Program-made: the position numbers and the translations under genes | Shown here: one piece after another, positions 11,085 to 26,825 of the stretch | Layout of the letters: each line of letters begins with the position of its first letter | Numbering within the stretch: position 1 is the first letter of the stretch | Origin: Croceibacterium salegens | GTDB taxonomy: Bacteria; Pseudomonadota; Alphaproteobacteria; Sphingomonadales; Sphingomonadaceae | Direction of reading: 5' to 3' | Length of the DNA: 36,955 nucleotides | NCBI RefSeq assembly: GCF_009827435.1 | Contig: NZ_WTYM01000039.1 | Coordinates: forward strand, 1-36,955 | The notes under the pieces: model-generated | Database searches by the model: none | What the model saw: only the letters and a program-made list of their open reading frames with translations | What the model was told of the DNA's origin: nothing

Positions 11085-11119
11085 ATTTGCCGTCGCTCAT
11101 GGGACGGTCATAATCTGTC
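11080..11119. repeat. Imperfect 40-bp inverted repeat upstream of the TonB receptor
   Basis: The arms GACAGATT and AATCTGTC are perfect complements at the outer ends; inner arms CCGTC and GACGG pair again, with unequal spacers of 2 and 4 bases. It overlaps one half of the Pho-box-like site. It could be an operator for a dimeric regulator or, less likely, an RNA hairpin. No other use is evident in the 270-bp gap 10970-11239. Confidence 0.4.
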
Positions 11120-11212
11120 CTCACTCATGCATTTCTGCGCACTTTGCACCAGTCCGACCCGGCTGAAACCCGGCAGAAATATTGCGCTTCAGAGACAGTA
11201 AATAACCATTTT

Positions 11213-11227
11213 TGCCGCAGTGCGGCA
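11213..11227. terminator. Short palindrome after the oxygenase gene
   Basis: TGCCGCA-G-TGCGGCA is a perfect 7-bp inverted repeat around one base. It lies 12 bp beyond the oxygenase stop. On the minus strand it is followed by five A residues rather than T residues, so any terminator role for the oxygenase gene is doubtful. Confidence 0.25.
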
Positions 11228-11239
11228 TTTCCGCAACGC

Positions 11240-12163: not shown

Positions 12164-12174
12164 GGTACGTGAAC

Positions 12175-13491
12175 CTAGCTAGCGAGAAACAGTCCGGCGA
12201 GCGCGGCGCTCATCAGGTTGGCGAGCGATCCCGCGGCAAGCGCCCTCAGGCCCAGCCTGGCGATTATCGGCCGCTGGTTTGGGGCGAGGCCCCCGGTAAC
12301 AGCCATCTGGATGGCGATGGAAGAAAAATTGGCGAATCCGCACAGCGCGAAGGTCACGACCGCCCGGCTGCGGTCGCTCAGCGCGCCCGTTTCGAGACCT
12401 CCGAGATCGATGAAGGCGACGAATTCGTTGAGCACGATCTTGGTGCCGAACAGTCCCCCGGCGACCTGCGCCTCACCCCACGGAATGCCGAGCAGGTACA
12501 TGACCGGTGCGAACAGCACGCCGAGGATGCCCTGGAACGACAGTTCGGGGTAGCCGAACAGGCCCCCGGCCCAGCCGAGCAATCCGTTGGCGAGCGCCAC
12601 CAGTGCGACAAAGGCCAGCACCATGGCGCCAACGGCAACCGCCAGCTTGACTCCGGTCTGCGCGCCTTGCGCGGCGGCCTCGATGATGTTGGCCGCTTGG
12701 TGGTCGCCTTCGAGCGACTCTGACGCAACCACTTCGTGCGGTTTCTCGCCTTCAGTGATGGCGGCGGGACCTTCGGCACTGACCCGACCCTTGGGAAGCG
12801 CGATTTCGTCGTCACTCTCCACCACGTTGGCCGGATCGGGCATGATGATTTTTGCCATCAGGATACCGCCCGGTGCAGACATCACTGCCGCCGCAAGCAG
12901 GAACGGCAGGTAGTCGCGGCCGAGCAGTCCGGCATAGGCGGCGAGGATCGTCCCGGCGACGCCGGCCATGCCGACCGCCATCAGCGTGAACAACTGCGAG
13001 GGCGCGAGTGCGGCAAGATAGGGCCGCACGACCAGCGGGCTTTCCGACTGGCCGACAAAGATGTTGGCTGCCGCGCTCAGCGATTCGACCCGGCTGATCC
13101 CGGTCACCCAGCCGATCCCCCCGCCGACCCAGCGCACGATGCGCTGCATGATCCCGAGATAGTAAAGGATCGAGACCAGCGAGGCGAAGAAGATGATCAC
13201 CGGCAGGGCGCCGAGGGCAAAGCTGCTCGACAGCGGATTGTCGGCGCTGGCCCCGAACAGGAACTCGGTTCCGGTCGTCGCATAGCCGAGCAATGCAGAT
13301 ACGCCGTTGGACGCGCCCTGGATTCCGGCCTTGCCCCACGGCGTCCACAGCACGAGGAAGGCGATGATCGTCTGCAGCAGGAAGGCAGCGCCGACCACGC
13401 GAATGCGGATGCGCTTGCGATCGGTAGAGAGCAGGAAGGCGATGGCGAGAATGGCCACAATCCCGGCGAGATTGATGAGTTTCGGCGCCAT
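12175..13491 (-). CDS. nupC: Concentrative nucleoside transporter (NupC/CNT family)
   Basis: A 438-residue inner-membrane protein with the three CNT regions: an N-terminal pair of helices ([15 protein letters not shown]), the gate region ([12 protein letters not shown]) and the nucleoside-binding core. [18 protein letters not shown] matches the CNT motif with substrate-contacting Gln and Glu. CNTs import nucleosides with H+ or Na+. I chose ATG 13491 because AAGGAAACC precedes it, although the frame runs back to 13557. A charged insert (about residues 205-255) before the C-terminal domain resembles the cytosolic loop of related bacterial proteins. The oxygenase gene follows after 11 bp, and a UshA-like enzyme that makes nucleosides outside the cytoplasm lies 5 kb away on the same strand. 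Confidence 0.92.
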
Positions 13492-13608
13492 GGTTTCCTT
13501 CGAGACGATCCCTTTGCCCGATCCTTGCCCTTCGCGGCCCGCAAAGGTCAAAGGCAAAGATGTGCACGGCGCACTTTTCTTATTGCGCGTGAAACAATAG
13601 CAGGGCGC
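13492..13608. promoter_or_regulatory. Divergent intergenic region between nupC and the VUT-family transporter
   Basis: These 117 bp must hold both promoters. GTGC-ACGGC-GCAC (13562-13574) followed by TTTTCTT forms a short inverted repeat. I see no preQ1 riboswitch, although the downstream plus-strand gene belongs to a queuosine-linked family. No promoter hexamers are convincing. Confidence 0.4.
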
Positions 13609-14271
13609 ATGGAACAGACCCCGCCCCCCGCCGCCGCGATTCCCGTGCCGCTGTTCGCGCTGGCGCTGCTTTACGGCGGCATGACCTGCATCGCCGGAGT
13701 GCTCGGGTCAAAGCAGGTGGCGCTCGGGCCGCTGGCGGTCGAGGCGGGAATCCTGCCTTTCCTGCTTCTGGTCGCGATTTCGAGTTCGGTGGCGAAGCTC
13801 TACGGCCGCGCCACGGCGGACCGGCTGGTGCGCTTCGGGTTCATCCCGCTTGTTACCGCCATCGCGCTGACCTGGCTGGTGATCCAGCTGCCGACCGATC
13901 CGGCGATGTACGAACCGGCCAAGGCGGCCTTCCCGATCGTCCTCGGACAGGGCGTGCGGCTGATGATCGCCGGGATCATCGCCTATGGCGTGTCGATGAC
14001 CCTCAACGTGTTCATCTTCTCAAAGCTCGCCGCGATGGCCGGGCGACTGACGCTTGTCGCGGGCGCGGTAGCGGCGGTGATCAGCCAGGTGATCGACACG
14101 CTGATCTTCATCACCGTCTCGTTCTACGGCGAGCGCCCTATCGGCGCGCTGATCGCCGGCCAGGCGCTGGCGAAGGTCGTGCTGTCGCTCGTGCTGGTGC
14201 CGGCGCTGATCGCGCTGATCACCGCGCTGGCCCGGCGCGTTGAAGCGCCCAGCGCGAACGCTATTTCCTGA
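13609..14271 (+). CDS. yhhQ: VUT-family transporter, queuosine precursor transporter-like (YhhQ)
   Basis: A 220-residue polytopic membrane protein with about six hydrophobic segments. The family signature near the C-terminal third, [17 protein letters not shown], is characteristic of the YhhQ/VUT family, known to import queuosine precursors (preQ0/preQ1). I chose ATG 13609, preceded by AGGG; the open frame extends 291 codons further back but is antisense to nupC and has no similarity. The gene ends 11 bp inside the convergent SMP-30-like gene. The N-terminus ([14 protein letters not shown]) is unusually proline-rich. No queuosine synthesis gene lies nearby, which fits a cell that salvages the precursor. 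Confidence 0.85.
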
Positions 14272-15283
14272 CCCCCATCGCCTCGGTGTCGATCGCGTAG
14301 ATCGTCGCCGCGATGTTGCGGATGCCCTGCGGCGTCTGCCAGTTCTCGCCGGTCGGAGTAACGGCACCAAGCGTCCCGGCGAAGAGCGTCTTGCCCGACG
14401 GCCCGCCGATCGCGACGGTAATGGAGCGCCGGGGAACCGGGATCGCGCCAAGCTGCTTGCCGGCCTTGTCGAACACCACGATCCCTTGTCCGGTGGTCAC
14501 GTAGAGCCGCCCGTCGGTATCGACCGTCATCCCGTCACCGCCGAAGCTACCTTCGGGCTCACCGCCGATTATCGCGAAGGTGTGCTTGTTCGACACCGAG
14601 CCGTCGGCGGCGACGTCGAAGGCCATGATCTCGGTGCGGTTGGTGACGTAGAGCGTCTTGCCGTCCGGGCTGAGCACCACGCCGTTGGTGAAGATCCCGC
14701 CCTGCGCCGGGTTGCCGCCGGTCACGATGGTATCGACCGTGCCATCCGCCTTGGCATGGAACAGGCCGCCCTGCGTGTAATAGGCTCCGCCATGCCCGTC
14801 GGCCGCGAGGTCGTTGATGCGGCCTAGCGTGCTGCCGTCGGCAAACTTGTCGGCAACGGTCTTACGCTCGGGCGTGAGCTGGACGATCTTGGAGAGGATG
14901 GTGCAGTTCGCTCCCAGGCCGAGGCCCGGATCGGTGCATGAGCGATCGGCGGCAAAGGCATTGCCCGCACTATCCAGCGAAATCGACCCCGCACCGGCGA
15001 CGAAGGGATATTCGACCCACCACTTGCCGTCGGGCCAGACCTTGATGATCGAATTGCTCTGCTCCTGCGCGAAGAGAAGCGAGCCGTCCTTTGCCGCGGC
15101 CATGCCGTCGACGATCATCGGGCCTTCCCAGAAAGTCTTCCACTGCGCTCCGGCGGCAACTACGCCGGGGATCGCGGTCACTGTGACCGGCACTGCCGGA
15201 CCCGGCTGGCTCTGCGCGGCGGCAGGTGCTGCCAGCACCAGCGCCAGGCTGGCGAGACCGGTGGTCAGGAATTCCTTGCGCAT
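14261..15283 (-). CDS. Exported SMP-30/gluconolactonase-like beta-propeller protein
   Basis: A 340-residue protein with a clear Sec signal peptide (MRKEFLTTGLASLALVLAA, cleavage near AAAQS) followed by a six-bladed propeller of the SMP-30/LRE family. Metal-binding positions typical of that family are visible: Glu in FWEGP, Asn-Asp in RINDLA, a second Asn in FTNGVVLSPDGK and Asp in GGDGMTVDTDG. Members hydrolyse lactones or esters. ATG 15283 follows GGGGAGA. It is the last gene of a four-gene minus-strand unit and overlaps the convergent transporter by 11 bp. Unlike cytoplasmic gluconolactonases it is periplasmic, which suits a quinoprotein dehydrogenase making a lactone or ester outside the inner membrane. 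Confidence 0.85.
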   Translation of the reverse strand: MRKEFLTTGLASLALVLAAPAAAQSQPGPAVPVTVTAIPGVVAAGAQWKTFWEGPMIVDGMAAAKDGSLLFAQEQSNSIIKVWPDGKWWVEYPFVAGAGSISLDSAGNAFAADRSCTDPGLGLGANCTILSKIVQLTPERKTVADKFADGSTLGRINDLAADGHGGAYYTQGGLFHAKADGTVDTIVTGGNPAQGGIFTNGVVLSPDGKTLYVTNRTEIMAFDVAADGSVSNKHTFAIIGGEPEGSFGGDGMTVDTDGRLYVTTGQGIVVFDKAGKQLGAIPVPRRSITVAIGGPSGKTLFAGTLGAVTPTGENWQTPQGIRNIAATIYAIDTEAMGVRK

Positions 15284-15295
15284 CTCTGTTCTCCC

Positions 15296-16084
15296 CTAAT
15301 CCTTGGGCGGTTCGATCGTGTTGACCTCTCCATCGGAGCCGGTGCGGTCGTTGGACCAGTCTACCTGTATCATGCGGTCGAAGCCGGTGTCGCGCGACCA
15401 GGCCAAATGAGAGACCCACGGCGCTGACAAGGTGACCGGATCCTCGATCGTCATCTGGCCGCGGAGCGTTTCACCGTCGAGCCTGATGCGCTCGACGTAA
15501 TGCGCTTCCTCACTCAGCGGTGGCGCGCCCTGGAAGTACTCATTGGGATTGGTCACCTGGATCGTGTCGATCACCAGGGTATTTCCTTCCCAGTGGCCGA
15601 TCGAGTTGCCCGTCGTCGTCGGCCAGAGGTCTTCGGGAGCCGGATGGTCGCGCCCGTCGGTGTAGATGTGCCGCGCCTCATTGTAGGCGTTGATGATCAG
15701 CACTTCCTCGGGGGTGATGAGGACCTGGAACGGGGTTGCCGCGGTCATCATGGTCGGAAAGCTCCAGCCCTTCCCTTTGCGCGCGTTCATGGTCTTGGCG
15801 TTTTCCGCCACGCGGCGACGCCCTTCCTCGTTCCACGGTATGTTGGGCGCCCAGACGCCGAGCGTATCGGTTTCCGGTCCCGGCGGTTTCCCGAGATCGT
15901 TGCGGATGCCGCTGATCGGCATGTCGAGCAGGTTCACCGGCACCCAGTACCCCGGCCAGTAAGGTAGCTTGTCGAAGGCCTCGCCGCGCGCTTCAGTGGC
16001 ACCTTCCTGGGCAGTGGCCGGGGCGGCACCAACAAGGGCCGTCGCCAGCAGAGCCGCGGCCAGAGTCTTTACAAGTACTCCCAA
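15296..16084 (-). CDS. Exported protein of an uncharacterised GHWEG-motif family, copy 1
   Basis: A 262-residue secreted protein starting at TTG 16084, chosen because AGGGGG lies 5 bases upstream and the frame begins with a good signal peptide (cleavage near APATAQEG). I recognise the family only as uncharacterised proteins often found near oxidoreductases; hallmarks are IYTDGR, SIGHWEGNTLVIDT, VERIRLDG and MTIEDPVTL. It is a paralog of the next gene upstream (16096-16866): both begin KLPYWPG(Y/F)WV after the signal and end in PPKD. The beta-rich pattern suggests a lipocalin-like or sandwich fold, but no catalytic residues can be assigned. Twelve bases separate its stop from the SMP-30-like gene start. 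Confidence 0.8.
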   Translation of the reverse strand: MGVLVKTLAAALLATALVGAAPATAQEGATEARGEAFDKLPYWPGYWVPVNLLDMPISGIRNDLGKPPGPETDTLGVWAPNIPWNEEGRRRVAENAKTMNARKGKGWSFPTMMTAATPFQVLITPEEVLIINAYNEARHIYTDGRDHPAPEDLWPTTTGNSIGHWEGNTLVIDTIQVTNPNEYFQGAPPLSEEAHYVERIRLDGETLRGQMTIEDPVTLSAPWVSHLAWSRDTGFDRMIQVDWSNDRTGSDGEVNTIEPPKD

Positions 16085-16095
16085 GCGTACCCCCT

Positions 16096-16866
16096 CTAGT
16101 CTTTTGGCGGATCGATCGTCCCGACACCGTCGCTGTAATCGGTGCGGTCATTCGAGAAATCCATCTGGATCATGCGGTCGAAACCGGTTTCGCGCAGGTA
16201 GGTGATCGACTTGCTCCACGGCCCTGTCAGCGTGGTCGGGTCCTCCACGGTGATGCTCATGGCCAGGCGTTCGCCTTCGAGGCGCATCCGCTCGTGATAC
16301 TTCGCGTCTTCCGAGAACGTCGGCGCGCCGTGGAAGTAGATCGCCGGGCTTTGTACCTGCACGGTTTCGATCACCAGCGTGTCGCCGTCCCAGTGGCCGA
16401 TCGACGTGCCCCATACGGTCGGCCACATGTCTTCGGCAGCTGGGAGTTCCCGACCGTCGGTGTAGATGTGCCGGGTTTCGCCATAGGCGTTGACGATCAG
16501 CGTCTCCTCCGGGGTGATCATGACCTGGAACGGCGTCGCCGCGTCCATCATCATCGGGTAACCCCAGCCATCCGCACCGCGGCTGCCGCGGGTCTTGGCG
16601 TCCTCGGCCTGGCGAGCCTTGCCTTCCGCGTTCCACGGCGCGTCGAAGCCGTTGAGCCGGTCGAGCGGGGGGCTGCCTGCCGGCCGCTGCGGAGCCGTGC
16701 CGGTGATCGTCGTGTCGTGATACTTTTCGCTGACCCAGAAGCCGGGCCAGTACGGCAGCTTGGCGAATGCGGCGACCCTATCCGCTTGCGTCGCGTCCTC
16801 GGCCTGTACAGGCCCCGTTGCGAGGAGCGCGGCTGCGGCGATTGCGGCAGCGGCGCTACGGATCAC
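16096..16866 (-). CDS. Exported protein of the same GHWEG-motif family, copy 2
   Basis: A 256-residue secreted protein starting at GTG 16866, which overlaps the preceding DUF6152 gene's stop as GTGA; a longer in-frame stretch to 17241 is antisense noise over that gene. The signal peptide is Ala-rich (cleavage near GPVQAED). Family motifs match copy 1: KLPYWPGFWV, IYTDGRELP, SIGHWDGDTLVIET, SITVEDPTTL, and a final DPPKD. The two copies align end to end with one extra segment in copy 1 (about residues 60-80), so they arose by tandem duplication and diverged. Function is unknown; the operon context suggests a periplasmic role beside the quinoproteins. Confidence 0.82.
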   Translation of the reverse strand: MIRSAAAAIAAAALLATGPVQAEDATQADRVAAFAKLPYWPGFWVSEKYHDTTITGTAPQRPAGSPPLDRLNGFDAPWNAEGKARQAEDAKTRGSRGADGWGYPMMMDAATPFQVMITPEETLIVNAYGETRHIYTDGRELPAAEDMWPTVWGTSIGHWDGDTLVIETVQVQSPAIYFHGAPTFSEDAKYHERMRLEGERLAMSITVEDPTTLTGPWSKSITYLRETGFDRMIQMDFSNDRTDYSDGVGTIDPPKD

Positions 16867-17237
16867 TGGTTGGTCCCGATCGGCTTGCCGTCGGGGGTCA
16901 AGACGTCGCGCACCACACCGCCCGGCTCGCCGTTGCGCAGCGGGCTGAGCTTTACGCTGATCATCATTCCCGGCTTCAGCGTGGCAGGGCGCCAGCCGCG
17001 GGCGTAGAGGTACATCGGAGCGCCCATCTCGAGGCTGTACTCGACTTCCTTGCCCGACGCGTCGGTGACCGTCAGCTGGATGTAGGAGTGCGGATTGGTC
17101 CACTGGAACTTGCGGACCTTGCCGGTGATCGTGACTTCCTTGGTCATGTCGAACATGCCGAAGCTGTGGTGTGCATCGGCTGCGCTCGTCGCCAGCGTCG
17201 CGCCCATCAGGGCCAGCGCGGCCATCATCTTTCGCAT
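16863..17237 (-). CDS. Exported DUF6152-type small protein
   Basis: A 124-residue protein with a Sec signal peptide (MRKMMAALALMGATLATS) cleaved just before DAHHSFGMFDM. The mature start HHSF, followed by KEVTITGKVRKFQWTNPHSY, is the hallmark of DUF6152, an OB-fold-like uncharacterised periplasmic family. The N-terminal His pair could bind metal. It heads the minus-strand unit that runs to 14261; GGGGAGTAGGA precedes its ATG. Its stop overlaps the GTG of the next gene (GTGA). The 125 bp upstream contain an AT-rich patch (TTTAAAC) that may be the promoter; I see no sharper signal there. Confidence 0.85.
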   Translation of the reverse strand: MRKMMAALALMGATLATSAADAHHSFGMFDMTKEVTITGKVRKFQWTNPHSYIQLTVTDASGKEVEYSLEMGAPMYLYARGWRPATLKPGMMISVKLSPLRNGEPGGVVRDVLTPDGKPIGTNQ

Positions 17238-17362
17238 ACAATCCTACTCCCCGCCGTATTCGGCTACGCGCAATGTGGCATCTCGCCGCGCATGAGTCAT
17301 CCGGCTTGTGCTTGTTTAAATCACCTTTCTTGCCGAGCGCAAATTACGGCGTCCTGAATAGG

Positions 17363-19474
17363 CTAATCCCGGCCCCAGTCCTCGTTGGCGCGGGCGATCA
17401 GGTACTGATGAATCGCCTCTGCCTGCTCCGGCGAGAGAATGTCGGAGAAGTTCGCCATGCCCTTCTCGAGGTAGAGGCCCTTGAGCACGATGTCGTTGAA
17501 CTTGCCGTGGGTCTCGGGCGTCATGTGGCGCAGGTCCTTGACCCCGCCGATGGCGTTCTGCCCGTGGCAGACCGAACAGGTCTCGGCGAACAATTGCGCT
17601 CCCTGCGTAATCTGCGCCTCGGTCCCCCGAACCGGCGGCGGGTTGGGGATCGCTTCGACCTTGGCCAGCGGCGGCAACTGTTCGGTCCCACCGAGCTTGA
17701 ACACCAGCAGCCGCGCCGGCGCGCGCGGAAGTTCGATGCCAGCCCCGCGCTCGATCTGCGCCGCGCCGCCACCCCAACCGGCGTTGATCGCCACGTACTG
17801 CACGCCGTCGAGCATATAGGTGATGCCGCCCGCGACCGGGGCGCTTTGTGTCGGGTATTCCCACAGCACCTTGCCAGTCCTCGCGTCGAAGGCGGCGAAG
17901 GTCTGCTTGGTGGTGCCTTCGAAGACGAGGTCACTGGCGGTGACGAACACGCCGCCGTTGCCGTGGCGCGGCAGTTCGACCTTCCACGCCACTTCCTGTT
18001 TCACCGGATCCCATGCGGTCAGCCAGGTCTTCTCGATCTTGTTGGCCTCGGCCATCAACTCGCCGCGTTTCTTGCCGGCCTCGCCGGTAAAGCCGCCCCA
18101 GCCGCTGTTCGAACGGAACGGCTGCGGCTTCCAATTGGGCTGCAGGGCATAGACGAATTCGGACTGGTAGGCCGGGAAGTAAGCTAGCTTCGTGCGCGGA
18201 CTGTAGGCCATCGGGAACCAGTTGTGCGCCCCGCCCGGCCCCGGCGCGACAAGCACCGGGTCGAAGCCGTAGCGGACCTTTTCGCTGGTGATCGGGCGGC
18301 CGTCCTTCCCGAAGCCCTCGTTCCAGTTCTGGAAGACGTGGTTCCTGGCGCTGATGAACTCGCCGGTCGCCCGGTCGAGGACATAGAAGAACCCATTCTT
18401 CGGCGCCTGCATCAGCACCTTGCGCAGGCGGCCGTCGATCGTCAGGTCCGCGCTGATCATCGACTGCGTGCAGGTCCAGTCCCACTCCTCCCCGGGGTTC
18501 ATCTGGTAGTGCCAGGCGTAGGTCCCGTCCTTACCGTGGAGTGCGACGATCGAACAGGTGAACAGGTTGTCGCCTTCGTTGTTCGAGCGATAGTAGCGGG
18601 CGTGCGGGTTGGAGTTGCCGGTGCCGACATAAACCAGGTCGAGCTCGGGGTCGTAGGCGATCGAATCCCACGGGTTGGCCCCGCCGCCGAGCTCACGCCA
18701 CATTCCGGTGTCGGCCCAGGTCTTGCGCATCATTTCCATGATGCCGTCGGAAGCCTCGCCGTCGAGCTTGTCCTCGGGATTGGGGGCGAGGAAGAACTTC
18801 CACAGCTTGGCGCCGGTCTCGGCATCGAACGCCGCGACGAAGCCGCGCACGCCGAGGTCGCCGCCGGATTCGCCGACCACGACCTTGCCTGCGAACACCC
18901 GCGGCGCGCCGGTGATCGAGAAGGCGTACTGGCTGTCCTCGGGGAAGACCCGCGTCGTCCAGACCGGCTGGCCGCTATCCTTGTCGAGCGCGATCAGGCG
19001 GCCGTCGAGCGTGGCGATGATGACCTTGCCGTTCCACAGCGCCAGCCCGCGCGCGACCGGCTCGCAGCAGGCATAGCGGCCGTATTCGCGCGGGGTCCTG
19101 GGATCGTAGGTCCACAGCTTGGCGCCGGTCTTGGCGTCGTAGGCTGTGGTAATGTTCCACGCGAGCGTGTTGTAGAGCACCCCGTCGGCATAGAGCGGCG
19201 TCGCTTCGACCCCGCGGTAGGTGTCGAGATCGTCGAACCACGCGAGGCCGAGCCCGCTGACGTTGTCGGCGTCGATCTGCGTCAGCGTGCTGTAGCGCTG
19301 CGCGGTGTAGTCGTGGCCGTCCATCAGCCATTGGCCCGCCGGGGGATTTGCCAGCGGGTCGGCAAAGCGACCGTATTCAATATCTTCCGCACCCTGCAGA
19401 ACGACTTTCAGCGGTTGGTTGGAGGCGACACAGGCGGCAAGTGCCAGGGCGAGGAATGCGACAAGGTTCTTCAC
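17363..19474 (-). CDS. Lipoprotein PQQ-dependent dehydrogenase with C-terminal cytochrome c (quinohemoprotein), copy 1
   Basis: A 703-residue quinohemoprotein. I chose GTG 19474: AAGGA lies 6 bases upstream, and it gives a short lipoprotein signal ending ALAAC (Cys15). The eight-bladed propeller carries the vicinal cysteine pair over PQQ (Cys136-Cys137 in YACCEPVARG), propeller repeats such as DGRLIALDKDSGQPVW and the block GGGANPWDSIAYDPELDLVY. The C-terminal domain has one c-type heme site, CSVCH (Cys633, Cys636, His637). Type II enzymes of this kind oxidise alcohols and pass electrons from PQQ to their own heme. The segment WDWTCTQ replaces the more usual WDYDAVQ-like sequence, and copy 2 has WDYTCTQ, so this family shares an extra cysteine. 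It starts one base after the upstream NTF2-like stop. Substrate is unknown. Confidence 0.93.
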   Translation of the reverse strand: MKNLVAFLALALAACVASNQPLKVVLQGAEDIEYGRFADPLANPPAGQWLMDGHDYTAQRYSTLTQIDADNVSGLGLAWFDDLDTYRGVEATPLYADGVLYNTLAWNITTAYDAKTGAKLWTYDPRTPREYGRYACCEPVARGLALWNGKVIIATLDGRLIALDKDSGQPVWTTRVFPEDSQYAFSITGAPRVFAGKVVVGESGGDLGVRGFVAAFDAETGAKLWKFFLAPNPEDKLDGEASDGIMEMMRKTWADTGMWRELGGGANPWDSIAYDPELDLVYVGTGNSNPHARYYRSNNEGDNLFTCSIVALHGKDGTYAWHYQMNPGEEWDWTCTQSMISADLTIDGRLRKVLMQAPKNGFFYVLDRATGEFISARNHVFQNWNEGFGKDGRPITSEKVRYGFDPVLVAPGPGGAHNWFPMAYSPRTKLAYFPAYQSEFVYALQPNWKPQPFRSNSGWGGFTGEAGKKRGELMAEANKIEKTWLTAWDPVKQEVAWKVELPRHGNGGVFVTASDLVFEGTTKQTFAAFDARTGKVLWEYPTQSAPVAGGITYMLDGVQYVAINAGWGGGAAQIERGAGIELPRAPARLLVFKLGGTEQLPPLAKVEAIPNPPPVRGTEAQITQGAQLFAETCSVCHGQNAIGGVKDLRHMTPETHGKFNDIVLKGLYLEKGMANFSDILSPEQAEAIHQYLIARANEDWGRD

Positions 19475-19475
19475 G

Positions 19476-20252
19476 TCAATCCTTCGGAGGTTCGGCGATA
19501 GGCTGGGTCCCGTCGGCAAGGCGGCCCCGCTTCAGCGATTCTTCCTGTTCCTGCGTGCCTGGCGGGCGGTGATATGCGCCGGCCGGCTGGGTGCCCGCCC
19601 TGAACGCTTCCCCGGTCACTGGGTTCGGATAGTGGTAGGGGATGATCCAGTAGGCCGGATAGGTCAGGTAGACCGTGGTCGGCGGCAGGTCGGGCGGCGG
19701 GTCGAACTTGTCGGGCCAGGTGTTGTTGAGGGCGTTCTTACCCCACCCGTCCCAGTTCGTGTACATTGTGAAGGGACCGCTGAGGCGGCTGATCTTCCAG
19801 ACGCCGTTTTCCTTGCGGTACTCGTTTTCGTAGAGCGGCAGGCCCCAGCCGCTGATCGCCATGACGAAGGCGCGGCTGCGGATCCACCCGGTCTTGCCGT
19901 CGGGCGAGATGTCGGGGATCGGCTGGAACTGCATGTGGTTGGCGATGAAGCCGGGCCGCGCGCCGTCGGGCCCGAAGGCCTTGTGCATGTATTCGAGCAC
20001 CCGCTCCTTGCCGAGGAACAGGCCCTTGCCGCCGATCTCCAGCGTGGCGTCGTCGGTGAAAAGTTCGCTGAGCTGGGTCCACTGCCCCTTGTCGACGAAG
20101 TAGCCGTAGGTGCGCTGGACGCGCTCGATCTGGTTCATGTCCTCGAGCCGCTCGATCCGGGCTTCAAGGGCGTCGAGCTTTTCCTCGGTGCTCTGCGCCG
20201 CAGCCGGGGCAGAGAGCAGGAGCAGCGGAGCGATGAGGAGTTTGCGCATCAT
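19476..20252 (-). CDS. Exported NTF2-like (SnoaL-like) protein, copy C
   Basis: A 258-residue secreted protein. After a signal peptide (cleavage near APAAAQS) a short coiled coil (about residues 20-42, heptads of Leu/Ile and Glu/Arg) leads into an NTF2-like cone (YGYFVDKGQWTQLSELFTDDA through LYENEYRKENGVWKISRL). A C-terminal extension contains YPNPVTGEAFRAG and ends IAEPPKD. NTF2-like proteins include dehydratases, isomerases and binding proteins; Tyr and Asp residues at the cone entrance are conserved in all three copies but a catalytic set cannot be assigned. Its ATG overlaps the previous stop (ATGA), and its final Lys-Asp codons supply AAGGA, the ribosome site for the quinoprotein gene one base downstream. 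Confidence 0.83.
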   Translation of the reverse strand: MMRKLLIAPLLLLSAPAAAQSTEEKLDALEARIERLEDMNQIERVQRTYGYFVDKGQWTQLSELFTDDATLEIGGKGLFLGKERVLEYMHKAFGPDGARPGFIANHMQFQPIPDISPDGKTGWIRSRAFVMAISGWGLPLYENEYRKENGVWKISRLSGPFTMYTNWDGWGKNALNNTWPDKFDPPPDLPPTTVYLTYPAYWIIPYHYPNPVTGEAFRAGTQPAGAYHRPPGTQEQEESLKRGRLADGTQPIAEPPKD

Positions 20253-20968
20253 TCCCTCCCCAGCACGGTGTCGGGCGGCTGCGGCAGGTCCTTGAGGGAG
20301 TCGCCGGTGACCGGGTGCTTGAAGCTGAAGGGCGGGATGTAGTTGCCCGGCAACGAGCGATAGACCTCGCTCGGCGGCTTGTCGGGTGGGTAGAGCGCGC
20401 TCACTCCCTCCATCGGCAGCGCCGACTTCATGAACCCGAGGTCGTAGTCGGTCATCGCGGTGGGATAGAAGTGCAGCTTCGAAATCAGCCACTTGCCGCC
20501 GACCTTGACGTACTCGTTCTCGTAGATCCCGACGCCCCACTCGCCGTTCTGACCGGGCTCGCCGAGCATGACCATGCCTTGCCAGCGCCCGGTCGCGGTC
20601 TTGCCGTCTGGCGCCACGATGATGACGTTCTGCAGCAGCATGTGATTGTTGAGATGCGCCGGGGCGAGGCCGGCGGGGCCGAACAGCAGCAGCGCGCGGC
20701 GGATGCGGTCCTGGCCGATGTAGACCCCGCGCTGGCCGTATTCGAAGCTGCCGTTCCGGCTGAACAGGTCGGCGGCCTCGTTCCACAGACCCTTGTCGAA
20801 GTAGTAGCCGTAATCGGCCTGCAAGGTCTCGATCGCGACCTGGTCTTCGAGCCGTTCGACCCGCTGGCGGTAATCGGTGAGGCGCTGTTCCACGGACTGC
20901 GCATGAGCACTGAACGGGCTCAATGCGAACAAGAACAGCGGTACAATCGATGCAATCGAGCGCTTCAT
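20249..20968 (-). CDS. Exported NTF2-like (SnoaL-like) protein, copy B
   Basis: A 239-residue secreted protein with a signal peptide (cleavage near FSAHAQS), a coiled coil (VEQRLTDYRQRVERLEDQ) and the same NTF2-like core as its neighbours: YGYYFDKGLWNEAADLFSRN, VYIGQDRIR and IYENEYVKVGGKWLISKL. The tail has KHPVTGDSLKDLP. It shares ATGA overlaps with both neighbours, so the three copies should be made in similar amounts, fitting a hetero-oligomer, although NTF2 domains also form homodimers. The region LLLFGPAGLAPAHLNNHML differs most from copies A and C, which would change the pocket. Confidence 0.83.
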   Translation of the reverse strand: MKRSIASIVPLFLFALSPFSAHAQSVEQRLTDYRQRVERLEDQVAIETLQADYGYYFDKGLWNEAADLFSRNGSFEYGQRGVYIGQDRIRRALLLFGPAGLAPAHLNNHMLLQNVIIVAPDGKTATGRWQGMVMLGEPGQNGEWGVGIYENEYVKVGGKWLISKLHFYPTAMTDYDLGFMKSALPMEGVSALYPPDKPPSEVYRSLPGNYIPPFSFKHPVTGDSLKDLPQPPDTVLGRE

Positions 20969-21669
20969 CGACTTGCCTCCACACGCTTCCCGGTCACCGG
21001 GTTGGGAGCCTGGAACGGCGGCACCTGCACCGCCGGAAAGGGCTGGTAGGTGGAGGTCGAGCCGCGGTCGGGCGGGTAGTCGATACTGGCCTGGCTGCGG
21101 ACCAGACCCTCGCCCGGCTTCAACCGCGCCCAGCCCTTTTCGACCGGGGCGACGAAGTTGACGTAGAGGTGCAGCGCCTTGATCCGCCAGATCCCGTCGG
21201 TGCCCTTTTCGTAGACGTTCTCGTAGATGCCGTCGCGCCATTCGGCGTGCTCTTTGTACTGGCCGAGCATGCCGAGATCGCGCCAGCGCGCCACGGCGCT
21301 ACGCCCGTCGTCCGCGACGACAATCGCCGGTTGCAGCGTGACCCATTCGTTGAGCTGGCCGTAGATCAGCCCCTCCTGCCCGCCGTGCAGGCGGCGCAGG
21401 TATTCCTCGATCCGGTCCTTGCCGACGTAGACCCCGTCGATGCCGATCTCGACCGAGCCGTCGTCGGTGAACAAGTCGGAGGCCTCTTTCCACAAACCGC
21501 GGTCGACATAGTAGCCGAAAGCACGCTGCAGCTTCTTGACCGCGCGATGACCTTCGAGCTTTTCGACCCGCAGCGTCAGCGCGGCGATTTCGGCATCGGT
21601 CTTCGCGTCGGCCAGCGCCGGCGCGGGAAGCATCAGGGCCAGCGCGGCGAGGACGGCGAGGCTTCTCAT
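20965..21669 (-). CDS. Exported NTF2-like (SnoaL-like) protein, copy A
   Basis: A 234-residue secreted protein, first of three tandem paralogs. A signal peptide (cleavage near APALADA) and a coiled coil precede the NTF2-like core: FGYYVDRGLWKEASDLFTDD, GVYVGKDRIEEYLRRL and IYENVYEKGTDGIWRIKAL. The C-terminal tail ends APNPVTGKRVEASR, shorter than in copy C but with the same PVTG motif. Its ATG overlaps the stop of the upstream beta-propeller gene (ATGA). Enzyme or binding function is not determinable from sequence; location in a quinoprotein operon suggests handling of the same metabolite. Confidence 0.83.
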   Translation of the reverse strand: MRSLAVLAALALMLPAPALADAKTDAEIAALTLRVEKLEGHRAVKKLQRAFGYYVDRGLWKEASDLFTDDGSVEIGIDGVYVGKDRIEEYLRRLHGGQEGLIYGQLNEWVTLQPAIVVADDGRSAVARWRDLGMLGQYKEHAEWRDGIYENVYEKGTDGIWRIKALHLYVNFVAPVEKGWARLKPGEGLVRSQASIDYPPDRGSTSTYQPFPAVQVPPFQAPNPVTGKRVEASR

Positions 21670-22679
21670 TTCACCACCGGCAGCGGGAAGGCGCGGATCA
21701 CGAACGGGTCGGGGTTCTGGTCCTTAAGCTTGGGGTCGAACAGGTAACCGATCTTGCCCTCCACTACGTATGCCTCACGGCCGACCACGGTGACCCCGAC
21801 CGGGCCGTTGAGCCCGGTGACGACGTCGGTCACGGTCACGCTGTTTCCCGATACGGTCAGTACGGCCACCCGGCCGCTGGTCCCCTCGCCCTGGATGAAG
21901 CGGTTTCCGCCGAGCGAGCGCAGACCATCAGGACCGCCCAGTTGGACCGGCACCGTTAGATCGGTCAGCCCGGCGTAGCTGCCGTCCGCCTTGCGCTCGA
22001 CCCGCTGGAAGAGGTTCTTGCGCACGTTGTTGATGTAGAGCGTGCCGTCCCCGGAGAACGCCAGCCCGTCGATACCGACCAGCGCCTCATCCTTGGCGAA
22101 CAACTCGAGTTCGTTGGCGTGCGGACGCAGCACGAAGATGCGCCCTCCGCTGGTCTCGCTGACCCAGACCGCGCCATCCCTGGCAATGGCGATGTCGTTG
22201 CACGCCGCCGGGCCGTCGGCGGGAAAATCGTAGCGTGCGCTCTGCAGCGCGGAGCTCAGGTCGAAGGCGAGCAGCGAGGATACGCCCCTCTCGCCGGCGA
22301 AGATGTTGGGGTTGTTGCAGGTCCACAGCAGCCGCCTGGCATTGTCCGCCATGACCCCGAACAGCGATTTCAGCGCATTGTCCGGCCCCGGCACGACCCA
22401 CGGCTCGGCCGTACCCGCCCCGGCGCGGGTTCGATAGATCGTTCCCCCGGTGCTGGCGTTGTAGAGATTGCCCTGCGCATCGTGGGTTATGCTTTCCGGG
22501 AAGACCCGGCTGCCGTTGATCGTCACGTCCCGCGCCGTCGGCGCAACGTTCCAGTTCACGCAGCCCGTAAGGGCAATTGCCAGCCCCAGAGCCAATGCCG
22601 CCTGCTTGCCGATCGCTCGTCTCCCTCTCCCGATCGCTGGACACGATAAGTCACCCGGGCGCGCTGCGAAAGCCAGCAA
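21666..22679 (-). CDS. Lipoprotein SMP-30-like beta-propeller protein
   Basis: About 314-337 residues depending on the start. The mature part begins after the lipobox ALTGC and is a propeller with SMP-30/strictosidine-synthase-like repeats: PESITHDAQGNLYN, ACNDIAIARDGAVWV, IDGLAFSGDGTLYINN and GPDGLRSLGGNRF. The Asn-Asp pair and the Asp-Gly of this family are present, so lactonase or esterase activity is possible. The frame has no ATG near the signal peptide. TTG 22679 is the first usual start but gives an odd 30-residue n-region; the best ribosome site (GGAGAGGGAG, 22621-22630) points to codon ATC 22613, which would give a normal lipoprotein signal. It heads a five-gene unit ending in the quinoprotein. 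Confidence 0.78.
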   Translation of the reverse strand: MLAFAARPGDLSCPAIGRGRRAIGKQAALALGLAIALTGCVNWNVAPTARDVTINGSRVFPESITHDAQGNLYNASTGGTIYRTRAGAGTAEPWVVPGPDNALKSLFGVMADNARRLLWTCNNPNIFAGERGVSSLLAFDLSSALQSARYDFPADGPAACNDIAIARDGAVWVSETSGGRIFVLRPHANELELFAKDEALVGIDGLAFSGDGTLYINNVRKNLFQRVERKADGSYAGLTDLTVPVQLGGPDGLRSLGGNRFIQGEGTSGRVAVLTVSGNSVTVTDVVTGLNGPVGVTVVGREAYVVEGKIGYLFDPKLKDQNPDPFVIRAFPLPVVK

Positions 22680-22787
22680 GCAATTTATTTATCACGCTAA
22701 GCAAATCCTGCCGGGTTTCGCCTTCACAAGCCCGGCGCGGTCGGTCAAAGTCGCAGGCAGGCTCGACAACGGGCGGGAGGGAACCTG
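22680..22787. promoter_or_regulatory. Divergent promoter region of the two quinoprotein units
   Basis: About 110 bp separate the minus-strand lipoprotein unit from the plus-strand quinoprotein. An AT-rich patch (22681-22705, CAATTTATTTATCACG) stands out in otherwise GC-rich DNA and is the likely site of one or both promoters. GGGAGGGAACCTG before ATG 22788 is the ribosome site of the plus gene. Shared control of both units from here is likely. Confidence 0.45.
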
Positions 22788-24932
22788 ATGAATTTCGCGA
22801 TGTGGCGGCGGGCCTTGGCGGCCCCTGTCCTCCTGGCTCTGGCAAGTTGCCAGCCGGCCGATGGCCTGCAGGCTACAGCTTCCGCCGCGAGCGATGCCCC
22901 GACCGTAGCCAACTCGCAGACCATGCGCGCGCTCGACGCCCCGGCCAACGTCGGCGACTGGCTCAGCTACAGCCGTGGCTGGGACGAGCAGCGCCACAGC
23001 CCGCTGACGCAGATAAACGAAGGCAATGTCGGCCAGCTCGGCCTCGCCTGGTACGATGACCTCGGCACCTTCCGCGGCGTGCAGGCAAGCCCGCTGGTGA
23101 TCGACGGCGTGCTCTACAACGAGTCCATCTTCAACGTGGTCACCGCCTACGATGCGACCAACGGCAAGAAGCTGTGGACCTACGATCCCAAAGTCGATTC
23201 CAAGTGGGCCCGCCTCGCCTGCTGCGGCCCGTCGAGCCGCGGCATCGCGGCGTGGCACGGCAAGCTCTACGTCGGCGCGCTCGATGGCCGGGTAATCGCC
23301 ATCGACCAAAAGGACGGGCATGAAGTCTGGTCGACTGCCACATTCGACGAAGCGAAAGCGCCCTACTCCATAACCGGTGCGCCGCGCGTGTATGACGGCA
23401 AAGTCGTGATCGGCAACGGCGGCGCCGACTACGGCAGCCGCGGTTTCGTGATCGCGCTCGACGCCGAGACCGGCAAGAAGGCGTGGAAGTTCTACCTCGT
23501 CCCCGGCGACCCATCGAAGGGCCCCGACGGCGAGGCGAGCGACGAAGCGCTGGCGAAGGCCCTGCCCACCTGGAGCGGCAAGTTCTGGGAAGCTGGCGGC
23601 GGCGGCAACGCATGGGACAGCTTCGCCTACGATCCCGACACCCGCACGGTCATCGTCGGCACCGGCAACGGCAGCCCGCACATGTGGCATTTCCGCAGCG
23701 AGGGCAAAGGCGACAACCTGTTCCTGTGCTCGATGCTCGCGCTCGATATCGATACCGGCAAGTACAAGTGGCACTACCAGGAAGTGCCTGAGGAGGACTG
23801 GGACTACACCTGCACCCAGCCGATCTTGCTCGCCGACATCCCGATCGACGGGAAGACCCGCAAGGTCGCGATGCAGGCGCCGAAGAACGGCTTCTTCTAC
23901 GTTGTCGACCGCACCAACGGGCAGCTGATCAGCGCCAAGAGCTACGTCTCGATCAACACCTGGGCGAGCCATGTCGACATGGCCACCGGCCGCCCGGTGC
24001 TGGTCGAAGGCGCGCACAACACCGCCACGCCGCACCTGATGAGCCCGAGCTGGCTTGCCGCGCACACCTGGCACCCGATGAGCTACGATCCGAAGACCGG
24101 GCTCGTCTATTTCAGCGCGCAGGAGCAGGGCTCGATCTACGCACGGGCGGAGGACGGAAAGTACAAGTACACCCCCGGCCCGGGCCGCTCGAATTCCGGG
24201 CAGGACTTCGGCAGTCAGCCTGAACTGCGCAGGGAACTGCAGTCCAAGGCCAACGCGACCGAGAAGGGCTACCTCCTCGCGTGGGATCCCAGGGCCCAGA
24301 CCGAAGCGTGGCGGGTACCTTATGCCCACCCCGGCTCGGGCGGGGTCCTGACCACCGCCAGCGGGCTGCTAGTGCAGGGCACGATCGACAAGACGCTGGC
24401 CATCTACCGCGACAGCGACGGCAAGAAGCTGTGGGAAATGAACATCGATCAGGCGCCGGTTGCCGGGCCGATCACCTACATGGTCGACGGCGTGCAATAC
24501 ATCGCCATCAATGCCGGTTGGGGCGGATCGCCGGTCTACAACCTCGGCCCGTTCCAGACCGCCACGGCCAAACTGCTGGTGTTCAAGCTCGGCGGCACCG
24601 CCACACTGCCGCCGATGACTGCGGTCAAGACCGACCTGCCCGCCCCGCCGCCGCTGCGCGCGAGCGAAGCGCAGGTCGCCGAGGGCCGCGAACTCTACGG
24701 CGAGAACTGCAGTCGCTGCCACGGCGGCAACGCGGTCGGCGGGGTCAAGGACCTGCGCTTCATGACCGCCGATACGCACCGCGAATTCGCCGACATCGTG
24801 CTCGGCGGAAAGCTCTCTGCGATCGGCATGGCAAGCTTCAAGGGTCAGTTGAGCGAGAGCCAGGTCGAGGCGATCCACGCCTTCCTGATCGCGCGCGGCA
24901 ACGAGGATTATCGCGACGCGACGGCGCGGTAA
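22788..24932 (+). CDS. Lipoprotein PQQ-dependent dehydrogenase with C-terminal cytochrome c (quinohemoprotein), copy 2
   Basis: A 714-residue quinohemoprotein starting at ATG 22788 behind GGGAGGGAA. The signal ends LALASC (lipidated Cys21). The propeller has the vicinal cysteine pair (Cys145-Cys146 in LACCGPSSRG), the block GGGGNAWDSFAYDPDTRTV and WDYTCTQPILLADIP; the C-terminal heme c site is CSRCH (Cys641, Cys644, His645) followed by GGNAVGGVKDLRFM. It aligns with the minus-strand copy over its full length but has an extra charged segment around residues 395-425 (HVDMATGRPVLVEG). So the two enzymes are related but probably differ in substrate. Electrons should flow from PQQ to the fused heme and on to the respiratory chain. 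The next plus-strand gene lies beyond a repeat element. Confidence 0.94.
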   Translation: MNFAMWRRALAAPVLLALASCQPADGLQATASAASDAPTVANSQTMRALDAPANVGDWLSYSRGWDEQRHSPLTQINEGNVGQLGLAWYDDLGTFRGVQASPLVIDGVLYNESIFNVVTAYDATNGKKLWTYDPKVDSKWARLACCGPSSRGIAAWHGKLYVGALDGRVIAIDQKDGHEVWSTATFDEAKAPYSITGAPRVYDGKVVIGNGGADYGSRGFVIALDAETGKKAWKFYLVPGDPSKGPDGEASDEALAKALPTWSGKFWEAGGGGNAWDSFAYDPDTRTVIVGTGNGSPHMWHFRSEGKGDNLFLCSMLALDIDTGKYKWHYQEVPEEDWDYTCTQPILLADIPIDGKTRKVAMQAPKNGFFYVVDRTNGQLISAKSYVSINTWASHVDMATGRPVLVEGAHNTATPHLMSPSWLAAHTWHPMSYDPKTGLVYFSAQEQGSIYARAEDGKYKYTPGPGRSNSGQDFGSQPELRRELQSKANATEKGYLLAWDPRAQTEAWRVPYAHPGSGGVLTTASGLLVQGTIDKTLAIYRDSDGKKLWEMNIDQAPVAGPITYMVDGVQYIAINAGWGGSPVYNLGPFQTATAKLLVFKLGGTATLPPMTAVKTDLPAPPPLRASEAQVAEGRELYGENCSRCHGGNAVGGVKDLRFMTADTHREFADIVLGGKLSAIGMASFKGQLSESQVEAIHAFLIARGNEDYRDATAR

Positions 24933-24939
24933 TCTGGCT

Positions 24940-25028
24940 GTCACCCCGGACTTGGTCCGGGGTCCATCTCTCCACCTGGACCGGCTGTGCAGGTGAAAGA
25001 ATGGATGCTGAAACTGGTTCAGCATGAC
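24940..25028. repeat. Paired-hairpin palindromic repeat (REP/BIME-like)
   Basis: Two perfect hairpins bracket an 89-bp element: CCCCGGAC-TTG-GTCCGGGG (24944-24962) and ATGCTGAA-ACTGG-TTCAGCAT (25005-25025). The outer ends GTCA and TGAC are complementary. This layout is familiar from dispersed intergenic repeats of sphingomonads. It lies between the second quinoprotein and the 589-residue protein gene, where it may end transcription or protect the mRNA 3' end. Only one copy is in the window. Confidence 0.75.
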
Positions 25029-25055
25029 GAAGAGGGAATTGGGGAGAGACGAGTT

Positions 25056-26825
25056 ATGCGAACGGTTCTTGCTTCACTGGCGGCACTGGCGGCCTTGGTC
25101 CCGGTCACTGCGATGGCGCAGGCCGCCGGGGAGACCAGCGCCGTGGTCGCGCCGAAGTGCGACCGCGCCTGTCTGCTCGGCGCACTCAAGAAACACATGG
25201 ACGCTCTGCGCGCCGGCGACATCAGCCAGGTGCCGCTGGCGACCGGCGCGACGGTGGTCGAGAACGACGTCGTCATCCCCGCCGGCACCGGCCTGTGGCG
25301 CACCGTCACCGGGGTCGATGCGACGGGCCTCGAGGCCGCCGACTCGCTGACCGGAAACGCCGCGTGGTTCGGCTCGGTCAAAGAGAACGGCGTCCCGGCA
25401 ATCTATGCGCTGCGCATCCATGTCACACCCGCCGGGCTGATCGACGAGGTGGAGAGCGTCGTCCACCGCAAGACCGCACTGCCCGCCCCGTTCGGCGACG
25501 TGACCAAGATGGTTCACGACCCCGAGTTCAACGAGGTCCTGCCGCCCGAACAGCGCCGCCCGCGCGAACGCATGCTGTCGATCGCCGACGGCTATTTCAG
25601 CACGGTCGAGCTCAACGACGGGCAGGTCTTCACCGACTTCTCCGAGGACTGCGGCCGGCTCGAGAATGGGATCTCGACCACCGCCCCGCCCCCCGGCGGC
25701 GCAGGCGGCAACGCCGCGGCCATCGCCAGCGGCTGCCGCGCGCAGTTCCTGCTCGGTCTCTACAAGATCAACAAGCGCATCCGCCGCGACTTCTTCATCA
25801 TCGACGAGGAACGCGGCGTGGCCGTCGGTCGCGGGTTCTTCGACCACGCCAACGAGTTCGACCGCTACAAGTTGACCGACGGGCGCGAGATGAAGACCGC
25901 GCTCAAGTGGCCCAATTCGATCTCGCTGATCGAGGCCTTCCGCATCCGCGACGGCAATATCTCGCGGATCGAAGCGGTGTTCACCTACGTACCTTACTTC
26001 ATGAACAATCCGTTCTGGGGCCCGGACTCGGCGCCACCCGCCTATGCGGCGAAGCCGGACGAATGCGGCACCGCCTGCCTCGACAAACTGGCGCGGGGCG
26101 CGATCGGGGCGATGAAGGACAACCAGTGGCGCTCGGTGAACTGGGCCGACCGCGTCGGCTACGCCGAGAACAGCGTCGGCATTCGCGTCGGCGAGGGCAT
26201 CTGGTCGACCGTCACCGCGACCGATAGCAAGCCGCTCGTCATCGCCGACGAAAAGACCGGCAAGGCGGTGTGGATCGGGCAGATCGAGGAGCACGGCCAG
26301 CCTTCATGGGGCGTGTTCACGGTCACCTCCGACGGCAACAAGGTCGGCGGCATCGATGCGCTGATCCGCCGCAAGGAATACGGCGCGCCCTATGGCGAGC
26401 CGAGCGACGCGGCGACGCCGCAAGTCGCGGTCCTGCCCGCCGGCCGCCGCACGAGCCGCGAAGCGATGCGCGTCGGGGCGATGGCGATGCTCGACGCGGG
26501 TGCAAGCAACGCCGCAAAGGCGCCCGACGTGGTCGCCACGGATTGTGCCGCCACCGTCAACGGCCAGCCGGCTGGCGCATGTGGCGCGGTGTTCGGCAGT
26601 GGCGCTTTCGACGGGCTGGAGCGCGTCCGCGACATCCAGGTCCTCGCGGTGGACGAGGCGCGCGGGCTCATCGCCATCCGCACCTTCGAGGATCGTCCGG
26701 CCCTCGGCAGCGGCTATCCTCGCACCTTCGAAATTCTCGAACTCATGCGCTTCGATGCCGACAAGGTCGTGGAACTGCGCTCGTTCCTGTCCGAACTGCC
26801 CTACGGAATGCCGCCGCACGGCTGA
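25056..26825 (+). CDS. Exported protein of repeated NTF2-like modules (589 aa)
   Basis: A secreted protein starting at ATG 25056 (GGGGAGA upstream) with a signal peptide cleaved near AMAQAAG. It is an internal duplication: residues about 35-335 and 345-589 each begin with a cysteine pair unit (CDRACLLGALKKHMDALRAG and CGTACLDKLARGAIGAMKD), followed by a VEN/AENS-V-GTGLW/GEGIW block and a PAIYALR/SWGVFTV strand. Within each half a second module starts with an RERM or REAM helix and an ADGYF-like stretch, so I count up to four SnoaL/NTF2-like modules, the last degenerate. Single-unit relatives occur near oxidoreductases. No catalytic residue can be named. It follows the second quinoprotein on the same strand and likely acts with it. 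Confidence 0.8.
   Translation: MRTVLASLAALAALVPVTAMAQAAGETSAVVAPKCDRACLLGALKKHMDALRAGDISQVPLATGATVVENDVVIPAGTGLWRTVTGVDATGLEAADSLTGNAAWFGSVKENGVPAIYALRIHVTPAGLIDEVESVVHRKTALPAPFGDVTKMVHDPEFNEVLPPEQRRPRERMLSIADGYFSTVELNDGQVFTDFSEDCGRLENGISTTAPPPGGAGGNAAAIASGCRAQFLLGLYKINKRIRRDFFIIDEERGVAVGRGFFDHANEFDRYKLTDGREMKTALKWPNSISLIEAFRIRDGNISRIEAVFTYVPYFMNNPFWGPDSAPPAYAAKPDECGTACLDKLARGAIGAMKDNQWRSVNWADRVGYAENSVGIRVGEGIWSTVTATDSKPLVIADEKTGKAVWIGQIEEHGQPSWGVFTVTSDGNKVGGIDALIRRKEYGAPYGEPSDAATPQVAVLPAGRRTSREAMRVGAMAMLDAGASNAAKAPDVVATDCAATVNGQPAGACGAVFGSGAFDGLERVRDIQVLAVDEARGLIAIRTFEDRPALGSGYPRTFEILELMRFDADKVVELRSFLSELPYGMPPHG

Follow-up and report, generated by a model that had tools for sequence, protein, structure and literature searches.

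The genome of Croceibacterium salegens (Alphaproteobacteria, Sphingomonadaceae; 3.64 Mb) contains, on contig NZ_WTYM01000039.1, a gene cluster encoding two quinohemoprotein dehydrogenases, two SMP-30- or strictosidine-synthase-like propellers, four NTF2-like proteins and three smaller proteins. The stretch analysed (the window) comprises 36,955 nucleotides of this contig (G000:C33; G000 is the window's own genome, other G numbers are further genomes of the family, and L numbers are genome stretches compared). The cluster lies at positions 14261-26825 and consists of 11 genes in three units, two of which, units B and C, form a real, co-inherited, exported-type module. An earlier interpretation made from the letters alone (the sequence-only reading) had placed the cluster and its families largely correctly and had recognised three tightly packed units, two of them divergent; its count of twelve genes was one too high.

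Unit A (minus strand) has the order DUF6152-GHW2-GHW1-SGL1, unit B (minus strand) the order SGL2-NTFa-NTFb-NTFc-PQQ1, and unit C (plus strand) consists of PQQ2-NTFx2. Units B and C diverge from a 108 bp intergenic region, 125 bp separate A and B, and within unit B there are 4-nt overlaps (ATGA) between SGL2 and NTFa, between NTFa and NTFb, and between NTFb and NTFc. Downstream of the cluster, cheA starts at 26894. All 11 products have export-type N-termini, as judged by eye. The upstream side of the window (5754-13557) carries genes for a nucleoside transporter, a 2-oxoglutarate-Fe(II) oxygenase, a large TonB-type outer membrane protein and a 5'-nucleotidase; the first two of these are syntenic with the cluster in G136 (L055) as well.

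Units B and C are inherited together, unit A is optional

The proteins NTFx2 (E up to 1e-3) and NTFc (E up to 1e-15) were used to search 199 genomes of the family (96 genera). Each of them had some match in 31 genomes, many of these matches being weaker paralogues. Close orthologues (NTFc, at least 70% identity; NTFx2, at least 58% identity over most of the length, or 62-63% over the N-terminal half in G076 and G144) of both proteins were found in the same 15 genomes (G000, G136, G191, G193, G138, G069, G147, G102, G079, G008, G164, G014, G165, G076, G144) and in none of the other 184, so that no genome among the 199 has one marker without the other (Fisher p 7e-23; this and the other co-occurrence statistics ignore phylogeny, related genomes not being independent). 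The 15 genomes are spread over 6 of the 96 genera, and genera g1 and g15 also each include one genome without either marker (G066, G103). Units B and C are inherited together by some sphingomonad-type bacteria.

The two units need not be neighbours. NTFc and NTFx2 lie inside one stretch of ~20 kb in nine of the 15 genomes and are far apart in six (G147, G102, G165, G079, G014, G008); in the latter, SGL2 accompanies unit C in four cases (L059, L060, L062, L063) and unit B in two (L079, L080). PQQ2 is located directly upstream of NTFx2 in all 14 full-length NTFx2 genes compared (the window and L055-L067). NTFx2 is split in G076 and G144, and its second part forms one chain with SGL2 ahead of NTFa-NTFb-NTFc-PQQ1; PQQ2 was not present in the stretches of these two genomes that were read. 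These arrangements bear on the possibility that three unrelated operons came to lie side by side by accident. The separation of NTFc from NTFx2, the changing partner of SGL2 and the behaviour of unit A (see below) would fit such an accident, but for units B and C it is refuted at the level of co-inheritance by the joint presence or absence of their markers, and the fusion of half of NTFx2 with SGL2 links unit C to unit B. As an explanation of the whole cluster we regard it as improbable.

Outside the family, samples of 385 genomes of the class and 398 genomes of the phylum (some family members included) yielded no match to NTFc with an E value of 1e-30 or lower. A plasmid origin was considered as well: all 26 plasmid records with relatives of PQQ1 (tblastn, E limit 1e-100) stayed below 60% identity, and for NTFc there were four partial matches, so that these searches revealed no copy of the module on a plasmid.

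Unit A behaves differently. It encodes SGL1 (14261-15283), an exported-type propeller similar to SMP-30/gluconolactonase (PF08450, 89.6 bits, cut-off 26.3) with solved relatives; GHW1 (15296-16084), an exported-type GHWEG protein; its GHWDG paralogue GHW2 (16096-16866; 55% identity to GHW1); and a DUF6152 protein (16863-17237; PF19649, 104.2 bits, cut-off 27). The two GHW(E/D)G proteins, which like the DUF6152 protein had already been noticed in the sequence-only reading, match no model of Pfam (searched to E 0.1) or NCBIfam (searched to E 0.01). With GHW1 as a marker (>200 bits), unit A was detected in 11 of 199 genomes, namely in 9 of the 15 cluster genomes and in 2 of the 184 others (G103 and G066, which lack B and C; Fisher p 2e-10). 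In the 15 cluster genomes, GHW1 adjoins unit B in three (G000, G136, G079), is located elsewhere in six, and has no >200-bit orthologue in six. DUF6152-GHW-SGL1 sets occur in L077, L083, L085-L090 and L009-L011 with neither B nor C in the sequence covered (L011 has one weak NTFb-like match), and G191 additionally has a lone GHW1 (L084). This marker distribution rules out unit A as a core part; it is an optional accessory. The expectation from a single pathway, that its genes stay together across genomes, therefore held for the markers of B and C, but only in part for that of A.

Two further regions of the C. salegens genome contain related genes. One (L074, G000:C24:68500-88000) carries a paralogous set with a flavin adenine dinucleotide (FAD) flavoprotein, a protein similar to the major facilitator superfamily (MFS), an NTFx2-like protein, a DUF6152-GHW2-like pair, a pyrroloquinoline quinone (PQQ) dehydrogenase and an aldehyde dehydrogenase (ALDH). 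In the other (L091, G000:C24:1-19500), four diverged PQQ-propeller genes are found among GHW/DUF6152-like genes; three of these propellers have no CxxCH motif, and none shows the Cys-Cys site.

Three LdpA-like proteins and their fused forms

The exported-type proteins NTFa (20965-21669), NTFb (20249-20968) and NTFc (19476-20252) match SnoaL_4 (PF13577; 80.6, 93.2 and 73.2 bits, respectively, cut-off 24), as expected for the three NTF2-like paralogues seen earlier. A profile built from 20 NTFa/b/c sequences finds the LdpA structures 8abt, 8abv and 8abu at E 3e-46 to 4e-45, followed at a distance by BaiE (E 6e-12) and LinA (E 1e-4). The seven best fold matches of the NTFa model (pLDDT, predicted local distance difference test, 83.9) are all LdpA, with 8abv/8abu/8abt/8abw at the top (template modelling score, TM, by query length 0.72-0.74; 29-31% identity). 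The entry 8abv is LdpA (PMC11476836), and the title of 8abu names an H97Q mutant. The equivalents of the LdpA Asp and His97 are conserved in NTFb (16/16) and NTFc (17/17), while NTFa retains the Asp and has Trp in place of His (15/15); pairing of this Asp with the His is a familiar feature of NTF2-like proteins and is mentioned for them in PMC11476836.

LdpA (LsdE) dehydrates erythro-1,2-diguaiacylpropane-1,3-diol (DGPD) to a quinone methide with loss of formaldehyde, and PcfL acts alike on a phenylcoumaran (PMC12997858, PMC11323797). Both are single enzymes that work with NAD-dependent dehydrogenases (PMC11323797) and are presumably cytoplasmic. NTFa, NTFb and NTFc share the SnoaL_4 fold with LdpA, with which they were compared. 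In contrast to these enzymes, they are of the exported type, are encoded by three overlapping genes, include one member without the His and form separate clades. Profile and model thus identify them as predicted exported-type relatives of LdpA, a lignin-dimer gamma-formaldehyde lyase. The initial proposal that the NTF2-like proteins are dehydratases, isomerases or carriers can accordingly be sharpened to relatives of an LdpA-type lyase.

How the three proteins might work together is suggested by natural fusions. In G138, a single chain of 442 aa (L067:9709-11037) is an NTFb::NTFc fusion, whose first half is placed with NTFb and whose second half with NTFc in the tree; it adjoins a second PQQ2-PQQ2-NTFx2 set of this genome. 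Moreover, 21 distinct genes (L095-L108, L114, L069:609-2609), picked from long open frames among the NTFc search matches and hence not a census, encode three LdpA-like SnoaL_4 modules in one chain of 602-714 aa. As called, 15 of the 21 have a signal-like start (by eye), the other starts being uncertain. Each of the modules D1, D2 and D3 falls into a clade of its own, and that of D1 joins NTFa (99/99). The His is missing from D1 in all 21 chains, and so is the Asp in the 19 that have a residue at this position; D2 keeps the Asp in all 21 and the His in 9; D3 keeps the His in all 21 and the Asp in 20. As the His is lost both in NTFa and in D1, the degenerate member is the first one in the operon and the single-chain forms alike. 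The fusion and the three-module chains suggest that NTFa, NTFb and NTFc form one hetero-oligomer. LdpA-fold proteins are typically trimers, and a trimer would be the favoured form. Often, the three-module chains have amidohydrolase-, ALDH-, BKACE-, HpcH/HpaI-, MFS- or TonB-receptor-like genes as neighbours (mostly by inspection).

Quinohemoproteins, PQQ supply and the remaining proteins

PQQ1 (17363-19474, minus strand) and PQQ2 (22788-24932, plus strand) are quinohemoprotein dehydrogenases with a cytochrome c domain, which is C-terminal in PQQ1 (TIGR03075, 523.8 and 542.6 bits, cut-off 480.05). For PQQ1, a GTG start is likely, and a longer form from a TTG at 19519 is possible; its best solved relatives are 1kv9 and 1yiq. 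The site string CCDNDTC is found in both proteins, together with the haem motifs CSVCH (PQQ1) and CSRCH (PQQ2). The orthologues of PQQ1 and PQQ2 form one group (97/92) that excludes the nearest own paralogue, L092. In the genome of C. salegens, PQQ1 matches 15 places, some of which are pieces of one gene. The assignment of both proteins as lipoproteins has to be qualified: a lipobox-like motif is present in the window in both, but (with a loose pattern) in 9 of 15 PQQ1 and 10 of 14 PQQ2 sequences, so lipid anchoring is not universal.

The alignment of 30 dehydrogenases (15 PQQ1, 14 PQQ2, and L067:796) shows how they resemble and how they differ from type II quinohemoprotein alcohol dehydrogenases (1kv9, 1yiq, 1kb0), with which they share the PQQ propeller and the C-terminal cytochrome c. 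The Cys-Cys pair, the Asn, the catalytic Asp and CxxCH are conserved in 30 of 30 sequences (the site names, i.e. calcium ligand and catalytic Asp, are those we assume from type II dehydrogenases). However, the calcium-ligand Glu is replaced by Asp in all 30, whereas it is Glu in 1kv9 and in the own paralogues L074 and L092-L094. Similarly, all 30 have a Cys three residues after the catalytic Asp, where 1kv9, L074, L092 and L094 have Ala and L093 has Ser. The exchange of Glu for Asp being conservative, we describe PQQ1 and PQQ2 as a type II subclass failing one feature. They differ from the known enzymes also in occurring as a sister pair together. The paralogue in L093 (G000:C53:137500-157000) has an Asp two residues after the catalytic Asp and is found with glutathione S-transferase genes, a short-chain dehydrogenase/reductase, a zinc-dependent alcohol dehydrogenase, an ALDH, an amidohydrolase and a TonB receptor, in what we take to be an aryl-ether (lignin beta-etherase-type) cluster.

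The hosts of the cluster appear to lack PQQ synthesis. Of the 199 genomes of the family, 6 have a pqqC gene above the curated cut-off, which shows that the search recovers this gene where it exists, but no cluster genome is among them. A pqqE gene above the cut-off was found in none of the 33 genomes tested, which included the 15 but no positive-control genome; pqqE matches below the cut-off were present in all 33 and likewise in 14 control genomes. By gene content, the hosts thus do not make PQQ, which is probably scavenged from outside. Use of exogenous PQQ is known among sphingomonads. The same absence, together with the Glu to Asp exchange at the calcium ligand, could also mean that the quinohemoproteins are not PQQ enzymes here and have a structural, cofactor-free or otherwise altered role. 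This seems improbable to us, given that the Cys pair, the Asn, the catalytic Asp and the haem motif are invariant and that the scores exceed the TIGR03075 cut-off. An assignment to the acido-empty-quinoprotein model TIGR04528 was rejected (354.7 and 331.2 bits, far below its cut-off of 650).

SGL2 (21666-22679, minus strand; start uncertain, TTG at 22679) is a lipobox-bearing propeller. Its description as one of two exported SMP-30-like propellers needs correction, as SGL1 scores above the SMP-30 cut-off, while SGL2 remains below it (PF08450, 22.3 vs 26.3 bits) and instead exceeds that of the strictosidine-synthase-like N-terminal model (PF20067, 27.2 vs 18.9 bits). Metal ligands of the SMP-30 type looked plausible by eye only. 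From the SMP-30/gluconolactonase and strictosidine-synthase-like propellers they differ in being of the exported type and in belonging to the operons described here.

NTFx2 (25056-26825, plus strand) is an exported-type protein of 589 aa without a Pfam match, and its model (pLDDT 76.6) shows four NTF2-like modules, in agreement with the multi-module protein recognised earlier. Its alignment comprised 13 sequences. An identification of NTFx2 with a known enzyme was rejected: its sequence matches in solved structures are not significant (best E 0.12), and its fold matches are not whole-chain (TM by query length <0.2) and were thus not used for naming. Just before the gene (24987-25055) lies a short stretch reading WMLKLVQHDE, which presumably resembles a dispersed sphingomonad repeat.

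A possible extracytoplasmic route for lignin-type aromatics

The genes next to units B and C in other genomes point to aromatic catabolism but vary by genome. A tannase/feruloyl esterase occurs in L076, where PQQ1 is also followed by a 2Fe-2S and molybdenum-cofactor protein pair (Pfam), relatives of which cluster in L075 and L078. Near PQQ2 in G102 (L060) there are genes for an FAD-binding protein and a cytochrome c; BKACE, ALDH and MFS genes are found upstream of unit B in L068, and an HpcH/HpaI aldolase gene in L069. Pfam matches place AraC regulators in L056, L062 and L063, and two of these stretches, L056 and L063, have TonB receptors as well, with L058 similar by inspection; the near-absence of transporters and regulators, which had seemed striking, is therefore a feature of this lineage. 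Furthermore, at least three PF03055 genes are present in 15 of the 15 cluster genomes vs 21 of the 184 others. We take PF03055 to be the family holding the lignostilbene dioxygenases.

Taken together, we consider it about an even chance (roughly 0.5) that units B and C together make up a single catabolic module outside the cytoplasm that combines oxidation with a cofactor-free lyase, probably for lignin/lignan-type aromatics, with unit A as an accessory; its substrate, activity and complex are inferred. In such a route, a side-chain-hydroxylated aromatic, probably of the lignin/lignan type, would enter through the outer membrane, and PQQ2 and PQQ1 would use PQQ taken up from outside to oxidise its alcohol and then its aldehyde group, the electrons reaching the respiratory chain by way of the haem c of these enzymes. 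The putative NTFa/NTFb/NTFc hetero-oligomer (possibly a trimer, with NTFa as the degenerate member) would use the Asp-His pairs of NTFb and NTFc in a lyase step like that of LdpA, a dehydration or a deformylation-type reaction without a cofactor. A further hydration or isomerisation might be performed by NTFx2, SGL2 and SGL1 might hydrolyse a lactone or ester, and the cleaved aromatics would then reach the cytoplasm. The narrower version, a lignin/lignan-dimer route with a hetero-oligomeric cofactor-free lyase (also as a single-chain triple-module form), a metal-site-variant quinohemoprotein pair and scavenged PQQ, is doubtful, with perhaps a quarter of the weight on it.

Several points weigh against this route. 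As BaiE and LinA belong to SnoaL_4 too, the substrate could be a compound unrelated to lignin. In the tree, for which the program warned of long branches meeting, LdpA groups not with the NTFa, NTFb and NTFc clades but with L113:9630, so we call the three proteins LdpA-like and not LdpA; this LdpA-clade SnoaL_4 gene (L113:9630-10388, G000:C25) is a separate gene of C. salegens itself. Its neighbours are genes for an ALDH, an amidohydrolase, an MFS protein and a thiamine pyrophosphate enzyme. No solved structure matches NTFx2 significantly, its fold matches to iota-carbonic anhydrase, polyether epoxide hydrolases, limonene-epoxide hydrolase and ketosteroid isomerase (KSI) are at module level only, and in hosts that do not make PQQ the dehydrogenases may depend on an external supply of it for activity. 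No convincing upstream word was shared (the best was present in 4 of 16 regions vs a maximum of 3 in 8 shuffles, all G/C-rich), nor were sigma-70-like sites found (0 vs a shuffled mean of 1.2). Carotenoid oxygenases fall into PF03055 as well, kinship among the genomes limits the independence of this comparison, and no PF03055 gene was recognised in the loci compared, where no search aimed at it was made. Finally, the alcohol side chain of dehydrodiconiferyl alcohol (DC-A) is oxidised by NAD-dependent enzymes in Novosphingobium aromaticivorans, and a putative PQQ-dependent ALDH assayed on the aldehyde is not among the enzymes reported active (PMC11323797), which speaks against a role of PQQ for that compound in that strain.

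The same exported module could therefore act on a non-lignin substrate, such as terpenoid, polyether, steroid or polyketide alcohols, with the NTF2-like proteins as dehydratases or isomerases (of the BaiE, scytalone dehydratase, epoxide hydrolase or KSI type) and the SGL proteins opening lactones. The weaker profile matches to BaiE and LinA, the fold matches of NTFx2 and the lactonase-type propeller SGL1 would agree with it. LdpA is nevertheless by far the closest solved relative of NTFa, NTFb and NTFc, and the enrichment of PF03055 as well as some of the neighbours (tannase/feruloyl esterase, FAD flavoproteins with cytochrome c, the 2Fe-2S/molybdenum-cofactor pair) are at odds with this alternative, which we rate as rather unlikely, though as the most serious competitor of the lignin-type route.

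Cytochrome-c-linked oxidation of lignan-type compounds is known from PinVW/PinAB, flavocytochromes acting in pinoresinol conversion (PMC12997858, PMC12607616), and the FAD-binding protein and cytochrome c of G102 are reminiscent of it. The cluster itself has no such flavoprotein; here, oxidation would be performed by the quinohemoproteins. In the titles, abstract beginnings and passages covered by our literature searches, no description of exported LdpA-like operons with quinohemoproteins was found, no paper joined three of the terms DUF6152, SMP-30, PQQ-dependent, NTF2-like and sphingomonad, and none named DUF6152. The sequence-only statement that the cluster has no recognisable described counterpart was nonetheless too strong, since LdpA/PcfL and the type II quinohemoprotein dehydrogenases have been described; it is their combination that did not appear in the literature searched.

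The module thus probably degrades plant-type aromatics outside the cytoplasm with a cofactor that is apparently not made by the host. If this is true, part of the catabolism of aromatic dimers would have been moved outside the cytoplasm and tied to PQQ from neighbours. Many NTF2 homologues of sphingomonads are uncharacterised (SYK-6 alone has 62 NTF2 homologues; PMC12997858), and the proposed route would provide some of them with a function that can be tested.

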